Positions 4,925-36,952 of a DNA stretch of 42,505 nt are shown here, in pieces. The stretch spans positions 1 to 42,505 of the forward strand of contig JACUUX010000021.1 of the NCBI GenBank assembly GCA_014859105.1, written 5' to 3'. Source of the DNA: Nitrospirota bacterium. GTDB lineage: Bacteria > Nitrospirota > Thermodesulfovibrionia > Thermodesulfovibrionales > SM23-35. Within the stretch, counting starts at the first letter, position 1, and every line of letters starts with the position of its first letter. A program made the translations under genes and the position numbers. Under the pieces are notes generated by a model. It had not been told where the DNA came from and did no database searches. It saw nothing but the letters and a program-made list of their open reading frames with translations.

Positions 4925-5251
4925 GTGAACTCGATTACCTTCGATGATTTCAAAAAACTGGATATAAGAATCGGGAAGATTATATCTGCAGAGAAAGTTA
5001 AAGGAACTGACAAACTAATGAAAATGGAAGTCGATATAGGTGCTGAAAAAAGACAGCTTATGGCAGGGATTGCTGAATTCTTCGAACCTGTACATTTAAT
5101 TGGAAAAGAGGTGCCGGTACTTTTGAATTTGGAACCAAGAAATATCAGGGGTTTAGAGAGTCAGGGAATGATTCTGGCAGTAGATGTTGATGGTAAACCA
5201 GTTCTTTTACATCCGGAAAAGGAAGTTCCTCCCGGAAGTGTTATTAGATAA
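4925..5251 (+). CDS. tRNA-binding domain protein, MetRS C-terminal (beta subunit)-like
   Basis: 108 residues forming one EMAPII/Trbp111-type OB fold: FDDFKKLDIRIGKIISAEKV, then LMKMEVDIG, a RQLMAGIAEFF strand and NLEPRNIRGLESQGMIL, ending in LHPEKEVPPGSVI. This is the domain found at the C-terminus of methionyl-tRNA synthetase or as a stand-alone tRNA-binding protein (CsaA/MetG beta). The start is GTG, 8 bases after a GGGGG tract. Stand-alone copies often accompany a MetRS lacking its own C-terminal domain, but metG is not in this window. A CsaA-type chaperone role cannot be separated by sequence alone. Confidence 0.9.
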   Translation: MNSITFDDFKKLDIRIGKIISAEKVKGTDKLMKMEVDIGAEKRQLMAGIAEFFEPVHLIGKEVPVLLNLEPRNIRGLESQGMILAVDVDGKPVLLHPEKEVPPGSVIR

Positions 5252-5317: not shown

Positions 5318-6466
5318 TTAAGGGGCCTGACTTTTCTGCGTATGGCAGGTAAAACATCCTCCTGAGCCACCACCACCAGCGACCATGGTGCTGTAATCCC
5401 ATTTGAGAATATCCGGATAATCTGTTGCATGAGCCCCATGGCAAGAGAGGCACATGACTACGTCTATCCCCGGCTGAACCACACTACTTGCATTATCAGG
5501 TACGGGTGACTGCCTTGCAACAGGGGACTCCACACTATAGGTTGTATATGATGCATATTCACCAGTACCTTTCAGGACTATGTCAGTTGGATGTCTTTTG
5601 AAGGGTGAAGTCGTACTGCCGCCGATCCCGATCCCATCCGATGTTCCGCCTCCAGATCCACCTGTCAGCGCATGAAAGTTTCCATGGCACGTACCACAGA
5701 AAGCGCTTATTGAGCCATTAGAAGAATATACACCATTGCTACCATGACAGTCACTACACCCGTCAGGATTGTCAAGAGGTGAGGTTGTGCCAAAGTATTC
5801 ATTATGATTATTAGTATCGTGGTTCTGCCACTTATATGGGCCTGTATTTTCAAGACCTTTTACACCCATAATGAATCTGTAACTTCCTGCGACAGTATCT
5901 ACATCGGTTTCACACTTACCATCCGTATTCAGGTGGTGGGCTCCTTTTAATGACGGGATTCCAGACCCGCTCCATGGGATACGCTTGCCGTGGCAACCAT
6001 TCTCGCCGGCACACGTTAAGTTTGTATCAAGAACTACCTGCTCGTGGAAGTACAGATTAATCGGGCCTGGAGGCCCGTTCAGAAAGTCATCTTGATTATT
6101 AAGCTCTATTATATTATGGCCTTTTGAATCAGAGGCGCCACTTCCCTTAGCTCCTATAATGTATGCAAAATTTCCACCTGCCAGATCTCCGGAAGGGTCC
6201 GTATGGTAGACCTGAGGGATATCACTGCCACCTATGGATACAATCTTAGAAGTTCCCTGTCCATGACACCCTATACAATCACCACGTAACAATGCTGGCT
6301 GGGGTAAGCTACTCCCTCCGAAGGCAATACCTTCGCTGATGCCGCTCTGTGAAGCATGCATTGTATGACAGTTTGCACAATTGCCTGTAATTTTAGCTTC
6401 AGAATAAATACATGATATTAACAAAAAGACAATGATAGATATGGATATAAAACTGATTTTCCTCAT
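5318..6466 (-). CDS. Secreted multiheme c-type cytochrome (doubled-CXXCH type)
   Basis: 382 residues with a signal peptide (about 1-24, [18 protein letters not shown]). Six canonical CxxCH haem sites are visible (CANCH, CIGCH, CSDCH, CGTCH, CLSCH, CFTCH), plus one wider CAGENGCH site with five residues between the cysteines. Phrases such as NCHTMHxSQ and the repeated GANxxCHG context match the doubled-CXXCH cytochromes of metal-reducing and sulfate-reducing bacteria, where such proteins move electrons in the periplasm or at the cell surface. It is transcribed divergently from the ADP-ribosylglycohydrolase gene. The electron partner is not identifiable from the neighbourhood. Confidence 0.9.
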
Positions 6467-6576
6467 AATAAAAATTCGTTCTTTTTTTATTCGTAGTATT
6501 ATGAATTTTAAGCCTTATTGTCAAGGGAAAATTAGCATAAGCTAATTTATTAAAACTTTGCATCTAATATATATAT

Positions 6577-6606
6577 TTGACAGTACAATGACATAAAGAT
6601 TAATTT
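6577..6606 (+). promoter_or_regulatory. Candidate sigma-70-type promoter for the ADP-ribosylglycohydrolase gene
   Basis: TTGACA at 6577-6582 and TAATTT at 6601-6606 are separated by 18 bases, about 65 bases before the start codon. The region is very AT-rich, so chance matches are possible. Confidence 0.4.
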
Positions 6607-6636
6607 AAATAAATTAGTTCCTGAATTTAAACAAAG

Positions 6637-6652
6637 AACCGCTCAATTTAGG
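6637..6652. repeat. Solo MITE terminal repeat
   Basis: AACCGCTCAATTTAGG matches the terminal inverted repeat of the 139-bp element in 15 of 16 bases. No partner end or internal hairpins are recognisable nearby, so this is either a decayed remnant or a very small deletion derivative. Confidence 0.55.
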
Positions 6653-6671
6653 TAGTTTTAAAATTAATATT

Positions 6672-7694
6672 ATGCTGCCCCATAAAGATCAGTTCAGCGG
6701 TTGTATTATAGGCCAGTGTCTTGGTGATGCAGTTGGCTTTACTGTCGAAGGTTTTTCCCCGGCTGCAAGCAGAAGATACGTTGAAGATTATTTAAGAACA
6801 GGAAAGGCAGTAGAATTCGGCAGATTTCCTTGTCCTTTTGGACAGTATTCAGATGATTCTCAACTTGCCCGCGAGCTTATTCAAAGTTATGTAGCCTGCA
6901 AAAAATTCGACCCATACGATTATGCAGAACGAATAAAATGCCTCTTTATTGAAAGGAGAGTTGTAGGGTTTGGTTATTCAACAAGACAGGCAGCCTTAAG
7001 GCTCTCAGAGGGCATATCATGGGAAGAATCCGGCATACCCTCTCCTTCAGCAGGAAATGGAAGCGCCATGCGTGCTGCACCTATAGGCCTGTTCTTTTTT
7101 GATAACCCCGAGATGCTTATAAAAGCAGCGCATGATCAGGGCAGGATTACCCATAAAGACCCGCGATGTTCAGCCGGAGCAATAGCGATAAGCGGTGCGG
7201 TATCAATTGTCCTTCAAAGCAAAAAATTAGATATCGGATCATTTATATCTTCTCTTTCGGGTTGGACGGGTAATCTTGATTCGGGATTCGCGTCAGAACT
7301 CGGGAAGCTTACCCAATGGTTATCTATGCAGCCTGAGGAGGCAGCTACTTACATTTCCAGAGCCGGTATGGCCCCGGACTATGTTGAAGAAGATGGGTGG
7401 CAGGGCATAACCCCATTTGTTATAAGCAGTGTTCTATGGAGTATATACTCATTCCTCAGAACCCCAGAGGATTACTGGGAAACTATCTGTACGGCTGTTT
7501 CAGTAGGTGGTGATGTTGATACAACAGCAGCAATGGCTGGTGCAATAAGCGGGGCATATCTTGGACTCAGTGCAATCCCCTCAGACTTAACACACTATCT
7601 GACTGACAGAAGAACATGGGGATTTAACGAGCTTGTGGAACTGGCATATAGATGCTATGAAATCAAGACGCAGCAAATTGAAGGAATCCCTTAG
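6672..7694 (+). CDS. ADP-ribosylglycohydrolase family protein
   Basis: 340 residues of the DraG/ARH fold. The N-terminus FSGCIIGQCLGDAVGFTVEG, the metal-binding pair D61-D62 in QYSDDSQLA, GNGSAMRAAPIGLFF, and the second metal site GGDVDTTAAMAGAI (D281, D283) are all intact, so it should be catalytically competent. The family removes ADP-ribose from proteins (DraG reactivates nitrogenase reductase), DNA or small metabolites; the substrate here is unknown. No draT or nif gene is nearby. The stop codon directly abuts a dispersed repeat beginning at 7695. Confidence 0.93.
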   Translation: MLPHKDQFSGCIIGQCLGDAVGFTVEGFSPAASRRYVEDYLRTGKAVEFGRFPCPFGQYSDDSQLARELIQSYVACKKFDPYDYAERIKCLFIERRVVGFGYSTRQAALRLSEGISWEESGIPSPSAGNGSAMRAAPIGLFFFDNPEMLIKAAHDQGRITHKDPRCSAGAIAISGAVSIVLQSKKLDIGSFISSLSGWTGNLDSGFASELGKLTQWLSMQPEEAATYISRAGMAPDYVEEDGWQGITPFVISSVLWSIYSFLRTPEDYWETICTAVSVGGDVDTTAAMAGAISGAYLGLSAIPSDLTHYLTDRRTWGFNELVELAYRCYEIKTQQIEGIP

Positions 7695-7846
7695 CCCATT
7701 TTATTCATAAATTTTCTCAGATATAGACAGGACATAGTATTAGAGCGGATTTATTTTGCCGATATTCATACAGTGTGTATATTGATAATAAAGAGGCAAA
7801 ATACCCCGGAGGTCCCGAAAGCTTTCGGGAGAATGAGCGAAAATAT
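7695..7846. repeat. Dispersed 152-bp repeat, copy 1
   Basis: It is nearly identical to the reverse complement of 22195-22339 over its whole length, apart from the central hairpin. That hairpin is the 18-base palindrome TCCCGAAAGCTTTCGGGA here and a different, shorter palindrome in copy 2. Each copy fills a spacer between convergent genes (here the ADP-ribosylglycohydrolase gene and aspS). No open frame is present. Confidence 0.85.
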
Positions 7847-7851
7847 ATAGA

Positions 7852-9633
7852 TTACACCTCTGGAAGATTCAATTTTATATAAAGGTCTCTCAGCTGCTTA
7901 GGATCAACTGTGGCGGGGCTGCCACTCATCAGGCAGAATGCCTTCTGGGTTTTCGGAAAAGCAATCACGTCCCTGATACTCGATGCACCGACCATGACCA
8001 TCACAAGTCTGTCAAACCCCAGTGCTATCCCACCATGCGGAGGCGCACCATATTCAAGTGCATCTAATAGAAACCCGAATTTTGTCCTTGCTTCTTCTTC
8101 TGTAATACCTAAGATTTCAAACAACTTCCTTTGAACATCCCGTCTATGGATACGAATACTTCCCCCCCCTATTTCGTAACCGTTGAGTATAATGTCGTAT
8201 GCCTTCGCTCTGAGTGAATGAAGCAATTCTTTATTGTTGATATCACCGGCAAGCATTTTATCTATATCATCGTCCATTGGCGAGGTAAAAGGATGATGCA
8301 TTGCCTCAAACCGTCCTTCCTCGTCATTCCATTCAAGGAGTGGAAAATCCGTTACCCATAAAAACCTGTAGCCGGGCTTTATCAGGTTCAGCCTCTTGCC
8401 AAGTTCAATTCTCAGCCTGCTTAACACGTCATGAACTATCTCTTCCTTATCGGCCACAAAAAGCATCAGATCACCCTCATCTGCTTCAAGCCTCTGGGCC
8501 ATCAGTCTCAAAATCTCATCAGGGAAAAACTTTGCTATAGGAGACTCAAAGCCATTTTTAACCTTCATCCATGCAAGTCCTTTTGCTCCAAAAGATTGAG
8601 CTTCTTCAGTAAGCATATCGATTTCTTTTCTTGACAGGACAGCCATCCCCTTGCCATTTATGGCCTTTACCCTGCCACCGGAATTGATCGCATCAAGGAA
8701 TGCTTTGAACGTGCTTTTCCCTGCAAGGTCAGCCATTTCTTTAAGTTCAAGGCCGAAGCGTAGATCAGGCTTGTCATTCCCGAACCTTTCCATTGATTCA
8801 TTAAAGCCCAGGCTGGTAAAGGGAATTTCAAGTTCAACATCCAGAACTTTTTTAAAAAGCAGTTGCATCATTCCTTCTATAGTCTCAATTACATCTTTTT
8901 TATCCACAAAAGACATTTCAAGATCGACCTGTGTGAATTCAGGTTGTCTGTCAGCACGTAAGTCTTCATCTCTGAAACATTTTACGATCTGGAAATACTT
9001 CTCGAACCCGGCAACCATCAGGATCTGTTTAAATAACTGCGGAGACTGAGGTAAGGCATAGAAATGTCCGGGATTCATGCGGCTCGGCACGAGATAATCC
9101 CTTGCACCTTCGGGTGTGGATTTAGTAAGCATAGGTGTTTCCACCTCAAGGAAACCTTTTTCGTAAAGATAGTCCCTGATAACCTTGGTGGCTCTGTGTC
9201 TTATAATGAAATTTTCCTGCATCTCGGGGCGTCTCAGGTCAAGATATCTGTATTTGAGTCTGAGATTTTCGGATGCATCTGCAGCATCTTCTATGGTGAA
9301 AGGTAAAGGAGATGACCGATTCAAAATGTCAATCTTATTTACATACATTTCGAAATTACCTGTTGGAAGATTGGGATTTTCTGTACCGGCAGGCCTTTTC
9401 CTGATTTCACCGGAGACGGCTATTACATATTCGTTCCTTAGATCGTGTGCGCTCCCGTGTAAATCACCTGATGCATCGGGACTGAAAACAACCTGCAATA
9501 CTCCGCTCCTGTCGCGTAAATCTATGAAAATAAGTCCGCCATGGTCTCTCCTCCTGAAGACCCAACCGCAAAGAGTTAAATTTTTGCCTATATCAGATTC
9601 CCTTATCTCTCCACATCCCTTGTCACGAACCAT
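7852..9633 (-). CDS. aspS: Aspartyl-tRNA synthetase
   Basis: 593 residues, the bacterial-length AspRS. The N-terminal OB anticodon-binding domain (about 1-105, [20 protein letters not shown]) is followed by class II motif 1 and motif 2 ([16 protein letters not shown]). The bacteria-specific GAD insertion spans about 290-410, and motif 3 is [11 protein letters not shown] near residue 545. It charges tRNA-Asp with aspartate. Whether it also charges tRNA-Asn cannot be decided from this window, since asnS and gatCAB are not seen. The ATG has a GGAGG site 6 bases upstream. No internal defects. Confidence 0.98.
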
Positions 9634-32186: not shown

Positions 32187-32539
32187 ATACAAACGCATTA
32201 GGATTTGTCTGTCCAACTATGAAGATTTAATAAATTTTTCTTAAGCTTACATAAACAAGGATAATCTGGACCAGCAGTTCCAAGAGTTACATATCAGCAG
32301 ATAAATAAGTGCAAACGGTTAAATGCCTTGTCAGGATTTTCCCACCAGAGATTATATGGAATCAATAACTCTCTGTATTGCAATGATATTTTGCACCTTT
32401 CCCAAATATGCTTATTATAAACAGCATAATGGGGAAATATTGTAAAGAGACTTATTTTTCATGGGGTTAGGGTGCCCATTTTTCTGTGCTTGCAATTTCG
32501 CTTCAGTGCTTTTTATAGTCGCAATCGACCCGCAACGAA

Positions 32540-32556
32540 AATGCCCGGTGTCAGGG
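32540..32556. repeat. 17-base direct repeat, left copy
   Basis: AATGCCCGGTGTCAGGG; the right copy at 33593-33609 reads AATGCCCGGCATCAGGG (15 of 17). Together they bracket the RNA candidate and the DUF3800 gene. Confidence 0.6.
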
Positions 32557-32601
32557 AATCAAATAAATACTTATAAATTTATAAAATAAAACAATTTGAA
32601 A

Positions 32602-32698
32602 TATAGTTAATAATATTATTAACTATAAGTAATCCAGCTTGCTGGAGGTGGATGGTCCGAATGGGCCAGCGTGAGAAGCCGGTTAAACCCGGCTTTTT
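32602..32698 (+). ncRNA. Candidate structured RNA: AT palindrome, two hairpins and an intrinsic terminator
   Basis: A perfect 26-base palindrome (32602-32627) is followed by CCAGC-TT-GCTGG (32634-32645), TGGTCC-GAAT-GGGCCA (32653-32668) and a terminator hairpin AAGCCGG-TTAAAC-CCGGCTT (32676-32695) with a T run. GCTGG at 32641-32645 can instead pair with CCAGC at 32666-32670, so two exclusive folds are possible. No open frame precedes the terminator on this strand. It resembles no RNA family I recognise. The palindrome could be either part of the RNA or an operator at its promoter. Confidence 0.4.
32676..32698 (+). terminator. Intrinsic terminator without an upstream protein gene
   Basis: 7-base-pair stem (32676-32682 with 32689-32695), six-base loop and five Ts. 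On the opposite strand there is no T run, so it serves plus-strand transcription, ending exactly at the 3' end of the converging DUF3800 gene. Confidence 0.75.
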
Positions 32699-33561
32699 CA
32701 TTTTATGAATACCAAACCATATCCATCGATACATCCATCACTTGCTCTGCAATCCAACTTTGGCTTTACTGCTCCTATTATTTTTAACCAGAATAAACCC
32801 TCATCAGATTCTTGCAAAAGTCCTTTCTGTAATAATGTATATTTTTTAAGTGGATGTGCAAGGATATCGGCCAATTGAAGCCCCGCAACATTTTTCTCTT
32901 TGGGCTTTATTTTTATTTCCTTAGAAGTAAGATATTGATGGTAAAATGCGCTCGATTGATGTCGTGTCCCATTCTCATAAGTGTTGAAATAAGCTTTCTT
33001 CAATTCAAAATCTTCAGTTTTTCCACGACTCTCAGCTATAACATCACCTCTCGCCCTGCGCTTTTTTAGAAATAAGCAATAGCGCCCAAGCATATTTACA
33101 AGGCAGTAATGATATGGATGCCATGCATATGATCCATAATTCTCTATATGGTTTTTCTTGTCAATTACAACATTTATGATTGTGTAATCCGCGTTAGCTA
33201 TTAAATCAATTATTCCAGCATTAAAACGTGGAGCAGTCTCTATATTCCGTAAAATATGGAAAGCACCTCGACATTGCATTATTTCCTTGGCATGAAGAAT
33301 TACCTGTTCATCTGGATCAAAAAAGTCTCCTTTGAAGGCTTCAAAGGTTGGCACAAATTGTTCTCTGTAATAATCGAGTTTAAAAATACAGCCTGTAAGG
33401 CTAAGATAACGCTTGTCATCTTTTTCGAGTTGTGGATAATAGTCTAACGTGCCGATGACTTCTTTTTTGGCACCATGCCTGATGATAAATGGAGACTTTT
33501 CCTTTTTCCCATAAGTATGATCGCCAGACTCATCAATATATAATCTATAAATAGGTCGCAA
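32698..33561 (-). CDS. DUF3800 domain-containing protein
   Basis: 287 residues. YIDESGDHTYG at the N-terminus is the DUF3800 hallmark; the fold is RNase H-like, with acidic residues (D9, E10 here, plus the aspartate in LQLADILAHPL) as possible metal ligands. The start is TTG, 10 bases after AAGGAGA. The family is frequent in phages, mobile elements and defence islands, and its biochemical role is not established. Here it is bracketed by 17-base direct repeats and converges on the RNA candidate. Length and motifs look complete. Confidence 0.88.
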   Translation of the reverse strand: MRPIYRLYIDESGDHTYGKKEKSPFIIRHGAKKEVIGTLDYYPQLEKDDKRYLSLTGCIFKLDYYREQFVPTFEAFKGDFFDPDEQVILHAKEIMQCRGAFHILRNIETAPRFNAGIIDLIANADYTIINVVIDKKNHIENYGSYAWHPYHYCLVNMLGRYCLFLKKRRARGDVIAESRGKTEDFELKKAYFNTYENGTRHQSSAFYHQYLTSKEIKIKPKEKNVAGLQLADILAHPLKKYTLLQKGLLQESDEGLFWLKIIGAVKPKLDCRASDGCIDGYGLVFIK

Positions 33562-33592: not shown

Positions 33593-33609
33593 AATGCCCG
33601 GCATCAGGG
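33593..33609. repeat. 17-base direct repeat, right copy
   Basis: AATGCCCGGCATCAGGG, same orientation as 32540-32556, 1.05 kb away. Confidence 0.6.
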
Positions 33610-33999: not shown

Positions 34000-34545
34000 T
34001 TATTCTCCTTTCTTTATACCATGGATAAAATAATGGCAATTTCCAGATAAAGGACACTGTTCGTGTTTCGGTCTTCTCGGGGTACAGATAATAGCTGCAA
34101 AATCAAGTAAAGCCAGATTAGCCTTTTTTGGATACTTACAATCTGCATAGGTTCTTGCGATATCGATGACTTGCTTATCCCGTCTTCCTTCTTTTGAAGT
34201 TGGGATACCAAAATATCTTTTAAAAACTCTTGCAACGTTACTATCAACAATCCATTCTTTCTTATTAAATGCAATTGACAGAACAATACCGGCAACATAG
34301 TCTCCAACACCTGGCAGTCTTGAAATTTCACCACGGGTCTGAGGTACCTTACCTCTAAATTTTTCCACAATCGACTGAGAAACCTCTTTAAATCTTTTTA
34401 TTCTCCATCTTAAACCGAGAGGATAAAGCATACTATTTAATTTTTTCATGTTCGTGCTGGCAACATCAGAAGGTGTTTTAAAATTCGAAAAAAAATTGAG
34501 ATAAACAGGCAGAACCTGATCAGCTTTTGTTCTCTGCAGCATCAT
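34000..34545 (-). CDS. HhH-GPD DNA glycosylase, MIG/TDG-like, N-terminally interrupted
   Basis: 181 residues from the first ATG (MMLQRTKADQVLPVY). The helix-hairpin-helix LPGVGDYVAGIVLSIAF and the catalytic aspartate in VDSNVARVFKRYF closely match the MIG-type T:G mismatch glycosylases, including the tyrosine of GDY. The same frame continues upstream to a TTG at 34629 with good family sequence (WFNKKRRDYPW, KTEEPFRILIAE), but a TGA at 34582-34584 replaces the usual arginine of PWR. The iron-sulfur site reads C-x6-H-x2-C-x5-C, with His where the second Cys is expected. Either a truncated enzyme starting at 34545 or a young pseudogene. Confidence 0.8.
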   Translation of the reverse strand: MMLQRTKADQVLPVYLNFFSNFKTPSDVASTNMKKLNSMLYPLGLRWRIKRFKEVSQSIVEKFRGKVPQTRGEISRLPGVGDYVAGIVLSIAFNKKEWIVDSNVARVFKRYFGIPTSKEGRRDKQVIDIARTYADCKYPKKANLALLDFAAIICTPRRPKHEQCPLSGNCHYFIHGIKKGE

Positions 34546-34618
34546 TTCAGCAATCAGAATCCTGAAGGGCTCCTCTGTTTTTCACCAGGGATAGTCTCGT
34601 CTCTTTTTGTTAAACCAT

Positions 34619-35383
34619 TTAGCCAACAAAAATATTATTGCGATGGAATTCTAAAAATTTCCTATCAGGAAGAAATCTGTCAGGTAATATTATGTTTGAA
34701 TCCTGGTATGCAAGGAATCCTCTTTGTACTGCTGGTTCATTAGATAGTTTTATAAGAGCTTTAGAAATTATTAGCTTATAATCATCATTAATTGTGATTA
34801 AACCTTTATCAAAAGCTTTGTCGTGTAAAACACACATACATATACCATTTCTGGGATTCATACGCAAGACAGCATCAACAGACCACGGTATAATATGTCC
34901 TGCTACAAGTAAATCAGGTTCAGGCAAAAAACAAACAGCGCATCTGCTTTTATAACTTGCAAGTACCATCTCCCGAAAGAAGCTCTGATTAATTCTGATT
35001 CTAACCATTGCTTCTTTTTCTTTTCCCTCTGGTAAATCTTTTTCAAATCTTACTATATCTTCTTTTCTCAATCCCTTAAGTTCAGCTAAAGCTATCTCAC
35101 TTTGATATGCAAGTTCTTCCCAATTCTGATTGAATTCATCCCAGATTTGTTCTTCGAGTTTGCTGCCATGTTGCATTCCCTTTATTCCACGCTTTCGATG
35201 GGTGGGATCAAGTCGAGCAAAATTACATAACTTAAGTGCAACAGCACTTGGAGTCCGTCCTAAAATCCCAGCAAGTTCTATTACCTTTGGATTATTTTTA
35301 TGATATTGCCCAAAAGGGAGTTTGCAGTAAAGATTAAAGGCAATTATTAGTTCCTGTCTTGTCCAATTTTTTCTTTCATTCAT
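34619..35383 (-). CDS. HNH endonuclease (restriction-type)
   Basis: 254 residues. An N-terminal helix-turn-helix-like region (WTRQELIIAFNLYCKLPFGQ, LGRTPSAVALKL) precedes the nuclease domain SRCAVCFLPEPDLLVAGHII, NPRNGICMCVLHDKAFDKGL. The paired cysteines, AGHI and the H-D-AFD motif are the HNH_2-type metal site, so it looks active. Related proteins are encoded beside DNA cytosine methyltransferases. No methyltransferase is seen here. The stop overlaps the full-length frame of the glycosylase, implying co-expression. The ATG follows AAGAT, a poor ribosome binding site. Confidence 0.88.
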   Translation of the reverse strand: MNERKNWTRQELIIAFNLYCKLPFGQYHKNNPKVIELAGILGRTPSAVALKLCNFARLDPTHRKRGIKGMQHGSKLEEQIWDEFNQNWEELAYQSEIALAELKGLRKEDIVRFEKDLPEGKEKEAMVRIRINQSFFREMVLASYKSRCAVCFLPEPDLLVAGHIIPWSVDAVLRMNPRNGICMCVLHDKAFDKGLITINDDYKLIISKALIKLSNEPAVQRGFLAYQDSNIILPDRFLPDRKFLEFHRNNIFVG

Positions 35384-36608: not shown

Positions 36609-36746
36609 TCATTCCAGTAGCCTTTTAAAATCTTCCTCTGTTATCTGAGCCTGTTTTAACATTTTATGAAACAATGCCTTTGGGATGTCTTTACTGTGCT
36701 GGTGACTTAGTCTAACCTGCAGGATTGTTCCGTCAGAAAGGATTTT
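36609..36746 (-). pseudogene. C-terminal fragment resembling a HicA/YcfA-type toxin
   Basis: 45 codons ending at a TGA. The sequence DGTILQVRLSHQHSKDIPK, followed by FHKMLKQAQITEEDFKRLL, has the H-S-x-D-I-P...L...L-K-Q pattern of HicA-type mRNA interferase C-termini. No start codon or N-terminal half is present. The frame meets the radC fragment at about 36745. Confidence 0.5.
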
Positions 36747-36952
36747 CTGCCATTAAACTCAAGAAACTTTTCAATTGGCTGGTTTGCCATACCTTTGAAT
36801 GAGCCGAATTTATCAAGGATTTCCTGTGCAACTTTCTCGGCAGGTTTGCCCTTTGTGCCGGTAGAGATAAGAATTGATAATAACTCAGCATCTGTTAATG
36901 ATTCAGCGCCAAGCTCTCTTAACTTACCGCCAGGATGTGACCATGTCTTCAT
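36707..36952 (-). pseudogene. radC N-terminal fragment
   Basis: 81 codons. MKTWSHPGGKLRELGAESLT, then DAELLSILISTGTKGKPAEK and GSFKGMANQPIEKFLEF match the helix-hairpin-helix N-terminal part of RadC (UPF0758). After FLEFNG the sequence becomes unrelated (RKSFLTEQSC) and stops. The JAMM metalloprotease-like domain, with its HxHxxxxxxxxxxD motif, is absent. The break point is the junction with the hicA-like fragment, so a deletion probably fused the two. Confidence 0.8.

Follow-up and report, generated by a model that had tools for sequence, protein, structure and literature searches.

In a type III toxin-antitoxin system, the antitoxin RNA is encoded as repeats upstream of the toxin gene, and the two form one operon. 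For ToxIN, the accessible parts of the published accounts describe phages that carry RNA-only copies of the antitoxin, pseudo-ToxI, in one case captured by recombination. The accessible parts of the work on AbiF (Abi_2) of Clostridioides difficile describe its neutralization by a dedicated structured RNA, RCd22, through direct binding, and those of the work on RNA anti-CRISPRs (Racr) describe solitary phage-borne copies of the RNA of a defence system. DUF3800 RNAs were reportedly described by Weinberg in 2017. Rfam holds a number of DUF3800-associated families (DUF3800-I, RF02969; DUF3800-VIII, RF03075; DUF3800-IX, RF02968; and others) which, like the RNA considered here, are small structured RNAs located beside DUF3800 genes. 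A literature search, with most subscription papers outside its reach, showed no paper on the present RNA among the titles listed, and in the literature searched the DUF3800 proteins and their RNAs are without an assigned function.

The locus lies in a window of 42,505 nucleotides of DNA from a Nitrospirota bacterium, in which a first-pass annotation had singled out positions 32602-32698 as a possible structured RNA with a switchable fold. The RNA gene proves to be real, and its extent was misjudged: an alignment of 28 RNAs of the window's own type, together with a match of 60.7 bits to the covariance model R1 built from them, places a structured RNA of about 69 nt at 32630-32698 on the plus strand, since in the relatives the RNA starts at the base aligned with 32630, with an uncertainty of 1-3 bases at the 5' end. 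The two short hairpins and the terminator that had been read from the window sequence are present. Hairpin P1 (stem TCCAG/CTGGA, loop CTTG; 32633-32646) and hairpin P2 (stem TGGTCC/GGGCCA, loop GAAT; 32653-32668) are both backed by covariation and are joined by a conserved linker, GGTGGA, at 32647-32652; the terminator hairpin P3 and its T run (32673-32698) reach, at 32698, the stop codon with which the convergent DUF3800 gene ends, so that the transcript would end at the 3' end of that gene, as had been proposed. The consensus across relatives consists of YAA, P1 (five base pairs, with a loop usually of 4 nt), the linker GGUGGA (exact in 62 of 69 RNAs), P2 and the terminator. In type A, to which the window RNA belongs, P2 has six base pairs and is followed by GCG, and in type B it is shorter; 28 RNAs were assigned to each type and 13 of the 69 have no clear type.

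The stretch 32602-32698 folds at -40.4 kcal/mol compared with -22.0 for shuffled sequences (z -5.5). It contains no open reading frame of at least 60 amino acids apart from the last base of the DUF3800 frame, which ends at 32698, in agreement with the earlier statement that these 97 bases hold no protein gene; a short reading frame inside the window RNA is, on inspection by eye, not kept in relatives. A repeat or transposon end, the kind of known element that would have accounted for the signal, is made very improbable by the occurrence of the stretch as a single copy in its own genome, and no Rfam element matches it. The E. coli genomes searched with the window stretch gave no match. A 15-nt inverted match to the upstream xerC-like gene was taken as chance.

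The assignment of the RNA to the plus strand follows from its promoter and its terminator; G-U and A-C pairs, counted in the anchored loci for the choice of strand, number 10 against 5. The -35 box, TTGAAA (32596-32601, plus strand), lies at position -34, where the other RNAs typically have TTGAC: of 69 upstream stretches, which do not include that of the window, 49 contain this motif, always 33-35 bases before the RNA. A possible, weak -10 box, TATTAA, follows at 32617-32622 with a spacer of 15. Between the -35 box and the RNA start is the perfect 26-base AT palindrome (32602-32627, without strand) that the first-pass annotation had described. It is indeed there, and it is the longest palindrome in the window; none of 40 dinucleotide shuffles of the window reaches 26 bases, the longest being 24. 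Its proposed membership of the RNA does not hold, because an RNA start at 32630 and a -35 box at -34 place it upstream of the RNA, in promoter DNA, and no counterpart was visible by eye in the upstream stretches of relatives. The palindrome may perhaps act as an operator. A 17-nt direct repeat (88% identical; 32540-32556 and 33593-33609) flanks the RNA and the DUF3800 gene and may be an insertion mark.

The covariation that had been named as a check on the RNA proved strong among the RNAs beside DUF3800 genes. The score is 0.567 for type A compared with 0.229 for shuffled alignments and 0.380 for type B compared with 0.152, the rows behind both scores having been picked for pairing. A fairer test anchors each locus on AA and GGTGGA only: after eight of 81 loci with a weak anchor were dropped, P1 was fully paired in 64 of the remaining 73, against a shuffled mean of 17 and a maximum of 28. 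The switchable fold proposed in the first-pass annotation, in which a GCTGG segment pairs with one or the other of two CCAGC segments, can be drawn in the window sequence and is not kept in relatives. Among the 28 aligned type A sequences, whose rows were picked for pairing, the P1/P2 fold is kept in all 28 and its pairs form in 100% of cells; for the alternative helix the figure is 61.4%, and 25 of the 28 sequences cannot form one particular pair of its five. Only one of the two exclusive folds that define a riboswitch is thus conserved, the RNA is closed by a terminator, and its strand has no gene immediately beyond; a riboswitch-like RNA is extremely improbable here. A second alternative helix (AUCC with GGAU) shows no covariation.

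The linkage of the RNA with DUF3800 emerges from its homologs. The first of these (E 3.3e-9), the one homolog among an initial 61 genomes, lies in genome G057, from another family of the same order, at the end of a DUF3800 gene to which it is convergent; further homologs are found in G172 and G369, whose DUF3800 proteins are 71% and 39% identical. For a wider search, an alignment of four such proteins was compared with one genome for each of 84,980 species, and the best 80 of 144 relatives, ranked by similarity to the window protein, were kept. R1 finds the RNA beside the DUF3800 gene in all 80 of these best 80 of 144 (weakest E 1.1e-4), 54 of the 80 loci lying outside the 28 RNAs from which the model was built; no full-length member of the subfamily among them is without the RNA. 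It is convergent with the gene and downstream of it in 79 of the best 80 of 144, and upstream and divergent in one (locus L083), which indicates that the RNA need not pair with the 3' end of the gene itself. At least 26 phyla are represented among the 70 tree rows with a named phylum. One of the carriers is a named strain, Desulfoferrobacter suflitae DRH4 (L048). A hairpin rule used earlier had missed the RNA in 14 of 81 loci; the model later found it in all except the record of L106. On the evidence of sequence, then, the stretch is a real RNA gene, and it belongs with DUF3800, as the first-pass annotation had supposed.

The boundaries of this association are visible in the phylum itself. Nine more distant or fragmentary DUF3800 loci, one of them (L018) a fragment only, lack the RNA in every case, and another of them, L020, carries instead a match to Rfam DUF3800-VIII (L020 2474-2538), upstream and divergent of a DUF3800 gene of another subfamily. 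That family resembles the window RNA in its small size, with 64 positions, and is typed as an sRNA; it differs from the window RNA in folding as one long nested hairpin, in its upstream and divergent position and in its DUF3800 subfamily (about 31% identical); DUF3800-I differs in its length of 115 positions. RF02969 gave no match anywhere in 118 genomes and 14 controls, the controls included. The earlier remark that the RNA fits no recognized family is supported by Rfam 15, which gives no family match at thresholds for the whole window and 18 related loci, and by a permissive search with E up to 10, which gives none for window positions 32500-32800 and 12 loci; the near-misses BSnc120, sroD and MicX are far below their gathering scores. 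Compared with the Rfam DUF3800-associated RNAs, therefore, the window RNA scores below every gathering threshold and shares the adjacency to DUF3800, found in 80 of 80 loci (the best 80 of 144), these loci having been found through DUF3800 so that adjacency is sampled via the gene. In three loci (L039, L043 and L102), the DUF3800 relative has one in-frame stop and a strong RNA is kept. A broken DUF3800 gene beside a retained RNA would be expected if the RNA outlives the nuclease, and sequencing errors are also possible; the three proteins with an internal stop, out of 81, were left out of A4.

The RNA and the protein share their descent. Mapped on the DUF3800 tree, the RNA type shows a single change over the 53 rows scored (the 13 of 69 RNAs without a clear type were left out, and three of the remaining 56 had no row), where shuffled labels give a mean of 18 changes and a minimum of 13 in 200 shuffles. 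The second base of P1 changes seven times among 66 rows (shuffled 15.3, minimum 13). For phylum, 38 changes are counted in 70 rows, where shuffling gives a mean of 50.5 and a minimum of 44. The RNA and the protein thus appear to move between phyla as a unit and to change together.

The DUF3800 protein itself (287 amino acids; 32698-33561, minus strand; Pfam PF12686, E 4.3e-11), which is convergent with the RNA, is a predicted RNase H2-like nuclease with conserved acidic residues. Its AlphaFold2 model has a pLDDT of 96.1. When this predicted model is compared with known structures, the first 16 ranks among the matches listed by VIA-align (Z 10.5-8.1) go to RNase HII, H2 and HIII, the PIWI domain of Argonaute comes next, and the only PDB match below 0.001 in a Foldseek search is human RNase H2. 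Residues D10, E11, D134, E177 and D232 are conserved in no fewer than 76 of 79 rows, so that an RNase H fold and a conserved acidic site are found together on the predicted model. The accessible parts of two earlier reports (PMC10910872, PMC12669027) likewise assign an RNase H fold to DUF3800 and describe its occurrence with Cas12 and type VI-F loci. According to the accessible part of another account, a DUF3800 gene, its subfamily not stated, is essential in one Legionella strain, which fits poorly with a simple toxin.

The next genes in the window, which follow the RNA and DUF3800 on the DUF3800 strand, encode two restriction-type nucleases (34000-35383): an HhH-GPD/EndoIII-like protein (34000-34545, minus strand) matched by the PADLOC type II nicking endonuclease model, and an HNH endonuclease (34619-35383, minus strand) matched by PADLOC HNH and type II restriction models. 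By raw counts, the commonest Pfam families among 75 upstream neighbours of the relatives are N6_Mtase (7), Eco57I (6) and ResIII (5), and PADLOC restriction-modification models occur there likewise; the 66 downstream neighbours are mixed. Farther along the window, an 81-amino acid open frame at 36707-36952 contains just the N-terminal portion of a UPF0758 (RadC-like) protein and is perhaps a broken gene.

Copies of the RNA also occur without DUF3800. Across 395 genomes of the phylum, six matches to R1 exceed 30 bits, and five of them lie beside DUF3800; in one of the genomes, G207, only the last 36 residues of DUF3800 are present beside the RNA, at a contig edge. The sixth, in G154, is a strong match in a genome in which no DUF3800 was found. 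This solitary RNA (L109 1501-1543) has a good promoter and lies near a toxin-antitoxin-like gene pair. With a second model, R2, which was derived from 27 RNAs of type B, the same 395 genomes yield no additional copy above 30 bits; matches of either model under about 30 bits were not counted in genomes, and part of them were inspected by eye. Viral candidates were collected with three patterns, of which one included the -35 box and the other two no promoter; the resulting number of viral copies, in at least 20 records, is a lower bound. The -35-box pattern gave 25 matches in viral contigs, 14 of them with a fully paired P1 (some being near copies of each other); with three free pairs (1 in 64), chance would account for about 0.4.

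Confident viral copies are those above 35 bits by R1 or R2, and their records, most of which are fragments, were searched whole for DUF3800. Among the matches listed, 19 of the 20 records with a confident copy have no DUF3800, and one (L259) has DUF3800 beside the RNA. Since L271 and L274 come from one sample and share a common RNA core, and L162 and L230 are alike, the 19 correspond to at least about 17 lineages. Because no more than about 200 bases separate the gene from the RNA in cells, the absence of DUF3800 is visible wherever the viral record runs on. A comparison of 17 viral records (two with weak RNA matches) with the six cellular copies among the matches listed gives a Fisher p of 0.001, which is a guide only, the two sets having been found by different routes. 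Phage genes are present on seven of the contigs listed that have the RNA and lack DUF3800: terminase and portal (L162), major head (L230), tail (L253 and L167), portal (L207), terminase (L257) and replication initiation (L147). By eye, the end of a DUF3800 gene seems to survive in L207 and L147 (WLP-stop and GKFL-stop), which suggests that the phages captured the RNA from the two-gene cassette. In 13 of the 19 viral copies examined, L259 included, the promoter scores at least 9 of 12, compared with 7% of shuffles, and the terminator is recognizable in nine. In cultured phage records, nothing beyond weak partial matches came up for four phage RNA stretches. In L162, three tRNA genes and a tmRNA match are neighbours of the solitary RNA (6427-7974), an arrangement like an RNA gene cluster, and L167 has one strong and one weaker (20.8 bits) copy, at 5141-5179 and 5734-5771.

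An RNA that always accompanies the protein, is sometimes found without it, co-evolves with it and occurs alone in phages is best read as a protective RNA. We accordingly favour, with modest confidence, a two-gene cassette of defence islands in which the RNA would be the antitoxin of an RNase H2-like nuclease and would have been captured by phages as a counter-defence. The cassette would consist of the nuclease of one DUF3800 subfamily and a dedicated small RNA, which would be transcribed from its own sigma-70-type promoter, ended by its own terminator and folded into P1, the GGUGGA linker, P2 and the terminator hairpin. The RNA would bind the nuclease directly and keep it inactive, in the manner of the ToxIN or AbiF RNA antitoxins; infection would lower the RNA, free the nuclease and thereby abort the infection, and phages carrying the RNA alone would hold the nuclease off. 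The RNA gene, its covarying fold, the promoter, the fixed linkage, the joint descent, the predicted protein fold and the solitary phage copies are features that can be read from the genomes, while transcription, binding, inhibition, toxicity, release on infection and a benefit to the phage are what the proposal would add to them. Several observations count against it: a DUF3800 fragment in G165, 71% identical, is without the RNA; the viral copy in L106, which has DUF3800, reaches an RNA score of only 7 bits; and ten of the 19 viral copies examined have no recognizable terminator and six no good promoter.

This antitoxin proposal is patterned on described systems, as far as the accessible parts of their accounts go, and departs from each. 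It would share with AbiF and RCd22 the pairing of a nuclease-type toxin with a dedicated structured RNA, and the protein fold and the RNA both differ. It would share with ToxIN a host RNA antitoxin mirrored by RNA-only phage copies; ToxI, however, is a repeat array, whereas the present RNA consists of one unit that has a promoter of its own and converges on the gene, and the protein is RNase H2-like rather than ToxN. Nor is the layout that of a type III system, the RNA being a single unit that is convergent in 79 and divergent in one of the best 80 of 144 relatives. With Racr it would share solitary phage copies of the RNA of a (here proposed) defence system, although Racr, in the accessible part of their description, mimic CRISPR repeats.

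The main rival, which we regard as unlikely and yet well above the other alternatives, makes the RNA a required cofactor of the nuclease, a scaffold or an activator, and the phage copies decoys that form faulty complexes as Racr do. The linkage and the co-evolution fit such a cofactor equally, and both the association of DUF3800 with Cas12 and type VI-F loci in the accessible parts of the reports (PMC10910872, PMC12669027) and the similarly documented Racr precedent for phage RNA decoys speak for it. The RNA, however, has no long variable segment usable as a guide, the phage copies examined keep the whole P1-linker-P2 core and not a part of it, and a solitary cellular copy exists in G154. That same solitary copy, with those in phages, is what would be expected of an independent regulatory RNA directed at other targets (such as mRNAs, or the 3' end of 16S RNA via GGAGGUGG) that is tied to DUF3800 by co-mobility only, and many members have a Shine-Dalgarno-like GGAGG in the core; but in the AATGC and AATTC members the GGUGGA linker is conserved and GGAGG is not, and the RNA type follows the DUF3800 tree across phyla, which leaves this explanation quite improbable.

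The convergent arrangement in 79 of the best 80 of 144 relatives, with the RNA end near the stop codon, would also suit an antisense or 3'-end regulator acting on the DUF3800 mRNA by pairing or transcriptional interference, like convergent type I toxin-antitoxin pairs. Pairing alone would not need a conserved GGUGGA or covarying hairpins, the RNA of L083 is upstream and divergent, and the RNA-only phage copies contain DUF3800 sequence in at most the last codons, so that such a regulator is improbable. As a good terminator that reaches the stop codon, the final hairpin is compatible with an element that is no more than a bidirectional transcription terminator closing DUF3800, or the end of a mobile element. 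Both are very improbable: the promoter box at a fixed place, the two further covarying hairpins, the conserved linker, the divergent case and the solitary phage copies go beyond what a terminator would explain, and the stretch is single-copy in its genome.

In its most far-reaching form, the antitoxin proposal describes an anti-phage system that crosses phyla, in which a single-unit RNA would restrain an RNase H2-like DUF3800 protein and which many phages would defeat with the RNA gene alone, sometimes with the tip of the nuclease gene attached; this form is put forward tentatively, as somewhat short of an even chance. The fixed RNA (80 of 80, the best 80 of 144 relatives), the single change of architecture and the RNA-only copies in phages make for a concrete and cheap test. 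If true, the system would explain why DUF3800 subfamilies have their own RNAs, and it would be a further case of phage RNA mimicry beside pseudo-ToxI and the RNA anti-CRISPRs.
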